IMG/VR virus record: IMGVR_UViG_3300017917_003093
Coordinates: 1-64,000 of that record
Reading direction: 5' to 3' (one strand)
Origin: a virus
DNA length: 64,000 nt
Below the pieces are notes generated by a model. It was not told where the DNA came from. It did not search any database and worked only from the letters and a program-made list of their open reading frames with translations. Position numbers and translations under genes: made by a program. This document shows positions 25,122 to 29,726 of the stretch, one piece after another. Numbering within the stretch: position 1 is the stretch's first letter; every line of letters starts with the position of its first letter.

Positions 25122-27743
25122 ATGTCTAATATAACCCCCGCTCGTAAACTGTTTGATCTGCTAATCAGCCGTGATTTTGATCCAGAAATGCTGGATTCTG
25201 CAGGCCGTGCCGCTGAAGATCCCAGTGACACCGAAATATTCAGTTTTGATTTCCGTGCAGAATCCGGAAGAGACTACGGAACCGTGGTCATAATGCTGGG
25301 CAATGACAACAATCTCGAAGTGTATTGTTCCGACAATGTAGGACGAAACATGGAGGGGTCCGACAAAGATAACTGGTTTGATTTTCTAGCACAACTCAAA
25401 CACTTCGCCACCAAGAACTTTATGGAGTTTGGCATCAAAAATCTCAATCGTTTACGTTACAGCATGCAAGGTCAAGCCGCCATCAAAGAAGGTCTGCTGG
25501 AATCCTGGGCCGGGCGACGTGACGTAAGCTGGAATGCAGGACCCAACGAAAGCCGACTCATGATACGTCACAAACGTGCTCTAGGAGAAGGTGAAGCTAG
25601 ATTCCGTTATGTAGAAAGCCTGTTTATTGAAACAGCCGAAGGCGAACGCTACAAGTTACCATTCCGTAATCTCACAGCCGGCAAGGCCATGTTAGAACAT
25701 GTACGAGCTGGGGGTCGACCCTATGATGATCGAGGACAACACATCGCAGAGATGGTGCAAGAACTTGGAGTGTTGGGTAGATTCCGTAGAGCCAATCAAG
25801 GTCGATTGCTAGAAGGTGATACCGCGGCATTGGTAGAAAAAACTGAAATTTACCACGAGACCCTGAAAAAAAATCTCAAGAGCCTGACCACTCGCACCGG
25901 TTATAAAAACTATTTTGAAAACTGGAATCCTGAAACACTCACAGAAGAATCTGCGGTGATTGACGGACTCAAGCATTTGTTTGTCACACAAAGTATCGAT
26001 CAGAGGATTGAAGATGCATTGCCACTGATTGCTCGAATCCAACAACAGGAAAACGTCATGAAAGAAGCTGAAATATTTGAATCCTGGGCTGATCAGCTCA
26101 TGGAAGGAACTTGGCAAACACCAGACACCCCGGAAAAACAAACAAGGTTAGTAAAGTTACTGAGCACGGATCTTCCAGTGGGTGCCGATGCTACCAATGC
26201 TACAGAACAACTGTATGATTTATTAGGCGATGACATTCTGTTTGATCAGTTGCACGACCTTGCTGCCAGCGATGCCAATGCAGATGCACGCCAGATTGTT
26301 TTGAATCGCATGCAAGAATTGTCTGATAATCCCGATGTGTTGAAAGTGATTACCGATCTCAACATCGACGCCACTGCCACAATGAATCCTCCTGAACAGA
26401 CACCAGCTGATCTAGAACCCACAGACGAAGCTGTAAAAGATCCTCGCACACAAACCGAAGATCCTGCTGGCACGAAAGAAAAAGCCTATCCAGAATATGC
26501 TCAAGATCTGACCAACATACTCCGACACGCCGGCGTTCCGGCCAAAGAACGTGCGGCTCCTGACTATGAACCAGAATTAGACGAAGGCATCTTGTCCGGC
26601 AAAGATCTACCTTGGCAACAACCAGGACAATCAGCACTGACCAAAACCATGGTCAAGGACTATGAAAAAGACATAGTCAAGCCTGGTCAAGCAGTGTTAC
26701 AAAAAGCCAAAGATTTGGCCAAAGAACGTGGTCAGCAAAAAGAAACAGCCAATCCAGGTGTGACACCGGCCGACATAGATGGTGTTCCTAAACAAGAATT
26801 AGATGAATTCGCTCCTTTGGCTGCTGCTGTTGGAGGTGCACTAGGACGTGCAGTTGTAGGCAGTGCTGTTAAATCTCTCGCAAATAAAATATCTAACAAC
26901 AACGAACTAGATGAAGAATGGTATGCTCATGATTTTGACAACTGGCAACAAGATGCCAATGCTAAAGGATTAGACATCATACATGCTGAAGCTGATGAAA
27001 CCGGCAACAGTCTGCAGGCTTATCATGCTGTGGATAAAAGTGGAGCCATAGTTGGTCACTTTGATGGCAACATTGGTAGCGGTGTGTTAACCAATTCCCC
27101 GGAAGACTATCAAAAAGCGGTGGCCGTAGATGAAGGATTTAGTCAAAATGCATATGATGCCTACACCAAAGATGTTGTTGATTATCGCTCTGGAGTAGCT
27201 GGTGCTAAAGAATTGTCCAAAATGGCAAATCCGTTGGACGAAGGACGTTGCAACATGACCGAAGCTGGTAAATCCTGCCCAGTGCATGGGTTGGAAGAAT
27301 GTGGACTTGAAGAAGGTTGGAAAGAAAAACTAGCCGCAGCAGGCCTAGCTGGTGCGCTGGCTCTAGGTGCTTCTGGAGCTCAAGCTCGAGTCATGCCGGG
27401 GCAAGATCCTAACGTCAACCGACTCACAGGAGAACCGATCACACAACAGGCCGCTGACGTTAAGCCTCAAGGATCGTCGCAAGGATTTAGCAAAGAGTAT
27501 CTGGAAAAAGCTGCCAACCCGGATCGTGTAGGACGTTTCCTAATCAGTGTGGAACAAGCACAAGAGATGTTGAAACAAATGGACGATGCCTCTACTACCC
27601 AGTTGAAGTTACGACCTTCCATCAAAAGATCTGGCACTCCGGTACAACAAGAAGGCTGGGGCCTTACTGCTGTGCCTACAGCAGAATCCAAAGATCCGGT
27701 TTTAGAAAGGTTTCAACAACTGGCCGCCATAAAATGTAGTTAG
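25122..27743 (+). CDS. Large virion-associated protein, unknown (873 residues)
   Basis: The first 330 residues look folded: NNLEVYCSDNVGR, a helical FLAQLKHFATKNFMEFGIKNLNRLRYS, then an LPFRNLTAGKAMLEHVRAGG region. The rest is acidic, Pro/Asp-rich and probably modular: residues 440-560 are linker-like, a small domain with EEWYAHDFDNWQQDANAKG lies near 605, and a CNMTEAGKSCPVHGLEECG cysteine segment is near 710. The N-terminal pattern is known from structural proteins of aquatic T4-like phages. Many L/I-x-E sites are present, which would suit processing by a prohead protease. Function is not known. Confidence 0.6.
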   Translation: MSNITPARKLFDLLISRDFDPEMLDSAGRAAEDPSDTEIFSFDFRAESGRDYGTVVIMLGNDNNLEVYCSDNVGRNMEGSDKDNWFDFLAQLKHFATKNFMEFGIKNLNRLRYSMQGQAAIKEGLLESWAGRRDVSWNAGPNESRLMIRHKRALGEGEARFRYVESLFIETAEGERYKLPFRNLTAGKAMLEHVRAGGRPYDDRGQHIAEMVQELGVLGRFRRANQGRLLEGDTAALVEKTEIYHETLKKNLKSLTTRTGYKNYFENWNPETLTEESAVIDGLKHLFVTQSIDQRIEDALPLIARIQQQENVMKEAEIFESWADQLMEGTWQTPDTPEKQTRLVKLLSTDLPVGADATNATEQLYDLLGDDILFDQLHDLAASDANADARQIVLNRMQELSDNPDVLKVITDLNIDATATMNPPEQTPADLEPTDEAVKDPRTQTEDPAGTKEKAYPEYAQDLTNILRHAGVPAKERAAPDYEPELDEGILSGKDLPWQQPGQSALTKTMVKDYEKDIVKPGQAVLQKAKDLAKERGQQKETANPGVTPADIDGVPKQELDEFAPLAAAVGGALGRAVVGSAVKSLANKISNNNELDEEWYAHDFDNWQQDANAKGLDIIHAEADETGNSLQAYHAVDKSGAIVGHFDGNIGSGVLTNSPEDYQKAVAVDEGFSQNAYDAYTKDVVDYRSGVAGAKELSKMANPLDEGRCNMTEAGKSCPVHGLEECGLEEGWKEKLAAAGLAGALALGASGAQARVMPGQDPNVNRLTGEPITQQAADVKPQGSSQGFSKEYLEKAANPDRVGRFLISVEQAQEMLKQMDDASTTQLKLRPSIKRSGTPVQQEGWGLTAVPTAESKDPVLERFQQLAAIKCS

Positions 27744-27894
27744 AGCAACCGCGTCATAAATACTCTTGACGCTACTCAATCTAGCGTATATACTGTCATG
27801 GTGTATGCGCTTTTTTGTTCAGCATCACAGGCAACTAAAATCTAAATCTTTAGATAGGCAACACATAGTAAAACTTTAGAAAGGCAACTTAACT
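27744..27894 (+). promoter_or_regulatory. gp32 upstream region: promoters, hairpin and AGGCAAC repeats
   Basis: The 151-nt gap holds a late box ATAAATA (27756-27762), a sigma70-like promoter (27766-27794), and a leader of about 95 nt. At the predicted 5' end, GTGtATGC (27801-27808) pairs with GCATCAC (27822-27828). AGGCAAC occurs three times (27829, 27856, 27882), the last two inside 15-mers CTTTAGAwAGGCAAC spaced 26 nt apart. In T4, gp32 represses its own translation through a 5' pseudoknot and an unstructured leader; the layout here is similar. Confidence 0.6.
27766..27794 (+). promoter_or_regulatory. Sigma70-like promoter for gp32
   Basis: TTGACG (27766-27771), 17-bp spacer, TATACT (27789-27794). 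The spacer holds ACGCTA...TAGCGT, an inverted repeat that overlaps the promoter and could be an operator. Confidence 0.72.
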
Positions 27895-28887
27895 ATGGCA
27901 TCTTTACAAGAAATTCGCGCAAGACTAGCCGCTAGCGAATCCAAACAAGGCGGACAATCCACAGGCGGTGACAACTCGATTTATCCACATTGGAACATGG
28001 ACGAAGGCCAAAGTGCCACTCTGCGTTTCTTGCCTGATGGTAATTCAAAGAACACATTCTTTTGGCAAGAACGTGCTATGATTCGCTTGCCATTCAATGG
28101 CATCAAAGGTGAAGCAGACTCCAAACAAGTCTATGTTCAAGTGCCATGCATGGAAATGTGGCAAGAGACTTGCCCAGTGCTCACAGAAGTGCGTACTTGG
28201 TTCAAAGACAAGAGCTTGGAAGAAATGGGTCGTAAGTATTGGAAAAAACGCAGCTACATTTTCCAAGGCTTTGTGCGTGAGAATCCACTCAGCGACGACA
28301 AGACTCCAGAAAATCCCATCCGCAGATTCATCATTGGTCCTCAGATCTTTACTTTGATCAAATCTGCACTCATGGATCCTGAGCTGGAAGAATTGCCAAC
28401 TGACTTGCAACGTGGGTTGGACTTCCGCATTACCAAGACTTCAAAAGGTGGTTATGCTGACTACAATACCAGCAAGTGGGCCCGCAAAGAAACTGCACTC
28501 ACTGAAGCCGAACAGGCCGCTGTAGACAAGCATGGTCTATTTGACTTGAGCACATTTTTACCCAAGAAACCAACCGAAGCCGAAGTCAAGGTCATCAAAG
28601 AAATGTTTGAAGCATCAGTTGACGGACAGAGCTATGACACCGAACGTTGGGGACAGTACTTCCGCCCAGCAGGGGTCAATGCACCGGCAGGTGGTTCTAC
28701 TACAACAAATTTTGTTGATGGGCACGGCGATGTACGTGAAGTTGCCAAAGCCGCACCGGCTCCTGTTAGCTCGTTTGACGACGAAGATGATGCTCCGGTT
28801 GCAGCCTCCGCACCAGTTGAGGCCAAACCAGCTACTCAGAATGCCAATGACATTCTGGCCATGATCCGCGCAAGACAGAAGCAGTAA
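27895..28887 (+). CDS. 32: Single-stranded DNA-binding protein gp32-like
   Basis: 330 residues (T4 gp32: 301). It has the N-terminal cooperativity region (basic LQEIRARLAAS), an OB-fold core with ATLRFLPDGN, FFWQERAMIRLPFNGI and YIFQGFVRENPL, and an acidic C-terminal tail (SFDDEDDAPV) ending in a short helix, as in other aquatic T4-like gp32 proteins. Only two Cys (C85, C93) lie in the region where T4 has its His-Cys3 zinc site, so the zinc ribbon appears reduced or lost. It coats ssDNA and organises replication and recombination with UvsX, UvsY and gp41. A strong terminator follows. Confidence 0.88.
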   Translation: MASLQEIRARLAASESKQGGQSTGGDNSIYPHWNMDEGQSATLRFLPDGNSKNTFFWQERAMIRLPFNGIKGEADSKQVYVQVPCMEMWQETCPVLTEVRTWFKDKSLEEMGRKYWKKRSYIFQGFVRENPLSDDKTPENPIRRFIIGPQIFTLIKSALMDPELEELPTDLQRGLDFRITKTSKGGYADYNTSKWARKETALTEAEQAAVDKHGLFDLSTFLPKKPTEAEVKVIKEMFEASVDGQSYDTERWGQYFRPAGVNAPAGGSTTTNFVDGHGDVREVAKAAPAPVSSFDDEDDAPVAASAPVEAKPATQNANDILAMIRARQKQ

Positions 28888-28896
28888 TCGTTGAAC

Positions 28897-28927
28897 AAAA
28901 GGGCAAGGGTAACACCTTGCCTTTTTT
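28897..28927 (+). terminator. Intrinsic terminator after gp32
   Basis: GGCAAGG pairs with CCTTGCC around a 6-nt loop, followed by six T (28922-28927). The next gene begins at 28932, directly after the U-tract. Confidence 0.85.
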
Positions 28928-28931
28928 CACT

Positions 28932-29726
28932 ATGGCAAAACTTGTCTGGAAAAAAACCGGCGATTTCATTGACTTGGTTCCTGTAGACCCCGAGGTCTAC
29001 GTATACTTTGTTGAAAACTTGGATCGCACAGGTCAAAATCATTACAGCCTTCCGGAGATGTATCTGGATACTCTGGCAAATGACTTGATCAACGATCTGA
29101 CCACTGTGGATACATTTTTTCAATCCAAGTTTGATATAGAACCCTGGATAACACACAGCATCGATCCACTGGACCAGACACAGTTGAATCATTTCCATAG
29201 AGTCTGGGTAGATCTGCATCTGCGATATCCTAATGTTGCAGTATTGAGTGACAAGATCATGCCAGGCATGGCACAACGATTGCACAATATTAACAAACTG
29301 ATACACAAGTTAGAAGAAAGTTTTGATTGGTTAGATTGCAAAACTCCAAGTCCTACAACGAATTTTCCAAATCCATTTGGAGCTCGAATATTGGATTTTG
29401 GCACGGCATCGATACAGATCGATTACAACAATCTAGGAAGAACCACCTATAACAAATGGAGAAACTTTGACACCGATGTAGCTGGCACCGATACCAATGA
29501 TTTCAAAGAACTCTATACCTGTATCATAGTGTCTTTGAAACGACCCAGCAGAGCATCGGCACCAAAAGAATATGTGACCTGGGCTGATCGGCATAATATA
29601 CAACCACATGGTAGCACATTGAATCTAGCACAGTTTGACAAACTGGAAGAAAATTTGCTAACATATAGAAAACTGATTTACAAGAATTCTCGCATCACAG
29701 AAAATTATTTTACTCTAAAGGAATAG
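28932..29726 (+). CDS. Unknown phage protein, paralogue of the gene at 43783
   Basis: 264 residues. No known domain recognised. It shares a spaced pattern with the protein at 43783: QTQLNHFHRVWVDL against QDSLNYWHHIFETR, LHNINKLIHKLEES against LAELNVAVHRCESV, and FGTASIQIDYNNLGRTTYN against FGSVCLNYAEIGKTLED. Conserved His, Asn, Glu and Asp suggest a metal-dependent or ligand-binding helical domain. It starts 5 nt after the gp32 terminator and precedes UvsX by 5 nt, so it may be expressed by read-through. The start at 28932 is chosen because an upstream alternative would lie inside the terminator stem. Confidence 0.55.
   Translation: MAKLVWKKTGDFIDLVPVDPEVYVYFVENLDRTGQNHYSLPEMYLDTLANDLINDLTTVDTFFQSKFDIEPWITHSIDPLDQTQLNHFHRVWVDLHLRYPNVAVLSDKIMPGMAQRLHNINKLIHKLEESFDWLDCKTPSPTTNFPNPFGARILDFGTASIQIDYNNLGRTTYNKWRNFDTDVAGTDTNDFKELYTCIIVSLKRPSRASAPKEYVTWADRHNIQPHGSTLNLAQFDKLEENLLTYRKLIYKNSRITENYFTLKE

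Follow-up and report, generated by a model that had tools for sequence, protein, structure and literature searches.

How the single-stranded DNA-binding protein (SSB) gp32 recognises its own mRNA among other nucleic acids has been described as unclear (PMC535899). In T4, gp32 represses its own mRNA via a 5′ pseudoknot and UUAAA/UAAA repeats that run into the ribosome-binding site (RBS), both of which are needed; the RB69 gene 32 operator is diverged and follows the same plan, and RB49 is without the pseudoknot (PMC535899, PMC3014915). Autocontrol by gp32 beyond the T-even phages has been stated to be an open question, and its study in diverse T4-related phages has been called for (PMC3014915, PMC535899). 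The leader of a gp32-type gene in an uncultured phage raises this question: is it an operator of the T4 kind? The locus lies in a 64,000-nt window (the whole stretch of DNA analysed) taken from a 66.5-kb viral record.

The gp32-type gene

27895..28887, + strand, gp32-type SSB of 330 aa (phrog_1192; fold match to the RB69 and T4 gp32 cores)

The product of this ORF was assigned by family profile search to the phage SSB family phrog_1192 (E 7.6e-71). Its AlphaFold model matches the gp32 cores of RB69 (Z 17.1, 2.6 Å) and T4 (Z 17.0, 2.5 Å), each over ~200 residues, and the Foldseek match to gp32 has an E value of 1e-9. Searching solved structures by sequence alone did not recover gp32, whereas the fold search did; identity to the T4 and RB69 proteins is only 17–18%. 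Downstream are a 269-aa ORF and then uvsX- and uvsY-like genes. Despite the low identity, the name gp32-type is justified because of the profile match, the fold match and these neighbours, and the identification of the gene as gp32 in an earlier note on this DNA is thus borne out. By fold and profile, therefore, the leader belongs to a gp32 homologue, as do the gene 32 operators of T4, T2 and RB69, which lie upstream of a gp32-fold SSB.

The 269-aa ORF between gp32 and uvsX (28917–29723) has no PHROG or Pfam match. In the related phages Phosso, GAP32 and RaK2, a RecA/UvsX gene is directly downstream of gp32.

AGGCAAC repeats in the leader

27829..27835, + strand, AGGCAAC repeat 1
27856..27862, + strand, AGGCAAC repeat 2
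27880..27888, + strand, Shine-Dalgarno (SD)-like AAAGG overlapping AGGCAAC repeat 3 (27882–27888)

The repeats are spaced 27 and 26 nt apart (start to start), and the 15-mers CTTTAGATAGGCAAC (27848–27862) and CTTTAGAAAGGCAAC (27874–27888) differ at one base. The earlier note had described both the three copies at this spacing, with the last at the RBS, and the 15-mers with their single mismatch, and it was correct in each respect. Three AGGCAAC copies within 120 nt occur in the window at the gp32 leader alone, and 5000 dinucleotide-shuffled versions of the leader gave no such cluster. All 94-nt stretches with at least two copies are at this leader (88 start positions, exactly those that one cluster gives), and no antisense array was found in the window. 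With Rfam 15 covariance models, the coding strand of the leader had no match even when the cut-off was relaxed to E 10; the sole signal was a sub-threshold antisense match at 27684–27729. A leader peptide was considered and rejected because the frame changes between successive repeats (spacings of 10, 11, 13 and 14 in relatives).

The relatives were at most 80 per query from a single viral collection, plus 14 cultured phages, and gave 95 related loci, nearly all of them environmental viral contigs. Across these loci, the leader has an AGGCA density of 2.62 per 100 nt, vs ~0.15 elsewhere (mostly 0.0–0.3 in other 100-nt bins, but 0.59 in the bin that opens the gene), and an AGGCAAC density of 1.84 per 100 nt, vs ~0. 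Conservation of the repeats, which the earlier note had proposed as a check, was found: at least two AGGCA copies are present in 92 of the 95 leaders, typically two to four copies of AGGCA(AC), and no other repeated 5-mer matches it. A set of 53 leaders contains 132 AGGCA vs 18 in shuffles (maximum 30). In 12 contigs totalling ~1.2 Mb, the gp32 leader accounts for 18 of the 20 AGGCAAC pairs, and the other two are inside ORFs; a search for triple AGGCA gave a like distribution, with some matches elsewhere. The AGGCAAC cluster in the gp32 leader is real, specific and conserved. Its conservation and near-exclusivity are as expected of a gene-specific operator, and support one.

Spacing among the 95 leaders ranges from 9 to 57 nt (groups of 9–17, 20–39 and 50–57). 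Repeat-phased binding, as suggested in the earlier note, is therefore not supported, since the spacing is not fixed. The last repeat begins 7–37 nt upstream of the ATG and thus abuts or overlaps the RBS, as in T4-type operators. It overlaps the SD in the subclade of the window, but the repeats are not themselves SDs, because many relatives have a separate AGGAG SD downstream of the last repeat. UUAAA/UAAA words are not enriched (TAAA and TTAAA were within the shuffle range in the 53 leaders), so in sequence the leader does not qualify as a T4-type operator. The window leader has no DNA match in cultured phages, and the AGGCA array is absent from the leaders of the 14 cultured relatives. An earlier account of an AGGCA leader was not found in the open-licence literature, although subscription journals could hold one.

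Promoters, predicted 5′ ends and helices

27755..27762, + strand, T4-type late promoter-like box CATAAATA (core TAAATA at 27757–27762)
27766..27794, + strand, sigma70-type promoter TTGACG-17-TATACT, predicted start near 27801
27783..27811, + strand, terminator-like hairpin S1, arms AGCGTATATAC and GTGTATGCGCT, the left arm holding the -10 box, followed by T5
27801..27828, + strand, hairpin S2, GUGUAUGC...GCAUCAC, at the 5′ end of the predicted sigma70 transcript
27840..27855, + strand, hairpin HP1, ATCTAA-ATCT-TTAGAT, between repeats 1 and 2
27864..27897, + strand, start-codon helix CATAGT (27864–27869) / ACTATG (27892–27897), its loop holding the SD and repeat 3

The sigma70-like promoter seen by the earlier note is conserved in relatives. 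Its predicted start is upstream of all repeats, not downstream of them, the arrangement that the note had named as evidence against its reading; in most relatives in which a promoter was found, the AGGCAAC repeats are likewise downstream of it. The + strand of the window carries 23 copies of TAAATA, most of them a short distance ahead of ORF starts, and the - strand carries 6. Given this strand bias and position, we read the motif as a T4-like late promoter, and the NTAAATA boxes at the 23 + strand sites appear to be the T4-type late promoters of this phage group. Among relatives with a scorable promoter, most have the late box 31–34 or 12–15 bp upstream of the sigma70 -10 hexamer. With the geometry of T4 late promoters, the predicted late start is near 27768, upstream of S1, and the predicted sigma70 start is inside S1. 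Because the late box is upstream of the -10 hexamer, early and late gp32 mRNAs should have different 5′ ends; both predicted transcripts contain all three repeats. In the window and its closest relatives, an inverted repeat GCGTCA ... TGACG(C) (~27750–27772) lies on either side of the late box and extends into the -35 element.

In 23 sequences, 94.4% of S1 cells are paired, and the covariation score of S1 exceeds that of every one of 500 shuffles and of every slid control; its arm sequences differ in more distant members. The hairpin is complete only in late or read-through RNA, and with its T-run it could terminate read-through transcription from upstream. The hairpin reported in the earlier note is S2, which can form from the arms GUG(U)AUGC...GCAUCAC. 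Its pairing is kept (93.2% of cells), but its covariation is not above that of shuffles. The two hairpins are mutually exclusive because S2 uses the 3′ arm of S1, which is the stronger and better supported inverted repeat and had gone unmentioned.

Also overlooked were HP1 and the start-codon helix. The stem of HP1 differs by lineage (ATTTAAG/CTTAAAT, GAGTAGT/GCTACTC, ATGCTC/GGGCAT or GTGTTC/GAGCAC), and several relatives are without it. The start-codon helix recurs as CATTTTA/TAAAATG, CATATTA/TAATATG or CCATAA/TTATGG, and is missing in some relatives. Each stem was scored separately because lineages that differ in their stems were wrongly aligned when MAFFT was applied to the inter-repeat segments. 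HP1 has a combined P of 8e-4 against shuffles, and leaders match the complement of their own tail more than permuted tails (P 2e-4), values that are optimistic because related sequences are not fully independent. The late-start leader is thermodynamically more stable than shuffles (z -2.1) and the sigma70-start leader is not (z 0.16). In predicted folds the AGGCA words are scarcely more unpaired than the remaining leader (0.54 vs 0.50).

A candidate operator for gp32 autocontrol

Given these features, we consider the leader to be probably an RNA operator by which the gp32-type SSB limits its own translation. Free gp32 in excess of the available ssDNA would bind the AGGCAAC words, spread along the ~60 nt from the first repeat to the AUG, and thereby cover the SD and start codon; as ssDNA accumulated, gp32 would depart and translation would restart. 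The late-promoter transcript may open with S1 and the sigma70 transcript with S2, in which case the two mRNAs could differ in stability, termination or repression. Points that suggest autoregulation are the gp32 identity, the enrichment and exclusivity of AGGCA, the order of promoter and repeats, helix covariation, the lineage-specific words described below and the T4 precedent. Points against it are the variable spacing, words that are barely less paired than their surroundings, and the lack of HP1 or the start-codon helix in some relatives. Of the T4-equivalent element proposed in the earlier note, the gp32 fold and the conserved, nearly exclusive repeats within the predicted transcript stand; the phasing and covariation in S2 do not. 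The helices found are hairpins, and a T4-type pseudoknot was not seen among them.

A further point against autoregulation is that T4 gp32 binds ssDNA without sequence preference, so that a specific word is not needed for simple spreading. Conserved, sequence-specific words are more typical of the target of a dedicated RNA-binding protein than of an SSB, and they might form an RNA operator for such a protein, encoded by phage or host and devoted to gp32 mRNA. This is rather unlikely in our estimation, although the data are also compatible with a dedicated regulator that is not gp32, and exclusivity to one gene is expected equally of it and of autoregulation. Several targets would be expected of a general, RegA-like regulator, but paired AGGCAAC is nearly confined to the gp32 leader; the RegA family gave no match in ten contigs, in a search that had no positive control and covered mostly contig fragments.

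Roles other than translational repression seem less probable still. The inverted repeat over the -10 box could be a repressor operator, and direct repeats beside replication genes resemble iterons, so the elements might act as DNA, the AGGCA words being sites for a DNA-binding or replication protein. We regard this as very unlikely: the words follow the promoter and run up to the SD, a covarying helix includes the start codon, many helices use G-U pairs (U-G in 17 and C-G in 6 sequences at one S1 position) and the spacing is too variable for iterons. We assign a similarly low probability to a leader that serves mainly mRNA stability or ribosome loading through its 5′ hairpin, terminator and SD context, with the repeats as ribosome or nuclease signals. 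The terminator-like S1 with its T-run, the overlap of the last repeat with the SD in the subclade of the window, and the unusual stability and leader processing of T4 gene 32 mRNAs (PMC3014915) are compatible with such a role, but other leaders in the window and contigs are without repeats, and the last repeat is followed by a distinct AGGAG SD in many relatives.

Compared with known systems, the autoregulatory leader proposed here most closely parallels the gene 32 operators of T4, T2 and RB69, in which a folded 5′ element is followed by short repeated words reaching the RBS, and in which operator sequences diverge among relatives (PMC535899, PMC3014915). It differs from them in its words, AGGCA(AC) rather than UUAAA/UAAA, in a 5′ element for which hairpins S1/S2 were found rather than a known pseudoknot, in having further helices, between words and involving the start codon, and in the nested late and sigma70 promoters with two possible 5′ ends. 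Most likely, to judge from sequence, the leader has the T4 plan (folded 5′ element, repeated words, RBS) and a different RNA code. The gene 43 operator hairpin of T4 and RB69, near the RBS, likewise gives a phage replication protein autogenous control of its translation (PMC3014915), but it is a single hairpin with a conserved loop and no word array, and concerns another protein. STAXI motifs, which are tandem pseudoknots close to genes for SSB and other DNA-handling proteins, resemble the leader as repeated elements near SSB genes, but their units are pseudoknots with UUCG tetraloops (PMC2864571); the present leader has no Rfam match on its coding strand. A conserved gene-specific word and covarying helices in dozens of relatives provide defined mutants and natural variants for testing gp32 autocontrol.

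Other words in more distant relatives

Below ~60% identity, AGGCA is largely replaced by other repeated words in the same position. The leader word is GGCTAATA in loci L199, L210, L212, L214 and L220, CATGGCA in L178, L192, L195 and others, and CTAACAT in L246. Among named phages it is AACAAAGAARCAAA in Cronobacter phage GAP32, Pectobacterium phage CBB, Salmonella phage Munch and Xanthomonas phage XbC2, and GCACAATT in Agrobacterium phage Atu_ph07. In each identity class, repeated 7-mers are more numerous than in shuffles (116 vs at most 45, 58 vs 27, and 33 vs 21), with weaker evidence in the last because that class is small and A-rich.

A more tentative reading, which we hold to be possible but doubtful as a whole, is that gp32 reads AGGCA in its own mRNA and that replacement of the word by lineage (GGCTAATA, CATGGCA, AACAAAGAARCAAA, GCACAATT) reflects lineage codes in which SSB and operator coevolved, while the nested late and early promoters would yield two mRNAs that are regulated differently and whose 5′ hairpins exclude each other.

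A sister group (L164, L174, L232 and L238) has no AGGCA in the last 115 nt upstream of the gp32 start. These leaders instead contain GTTAGT, a variable hairpin and GCGAA, with a conserved GACCATC-like element upstream of the SD. Locus L249 has GACCATC plus one AGGCA, which suggests operator replacement. In the CATGGCA leaders L176–L205, WGGCA is also present directly upstream of the sigma70 -10 hexamer.
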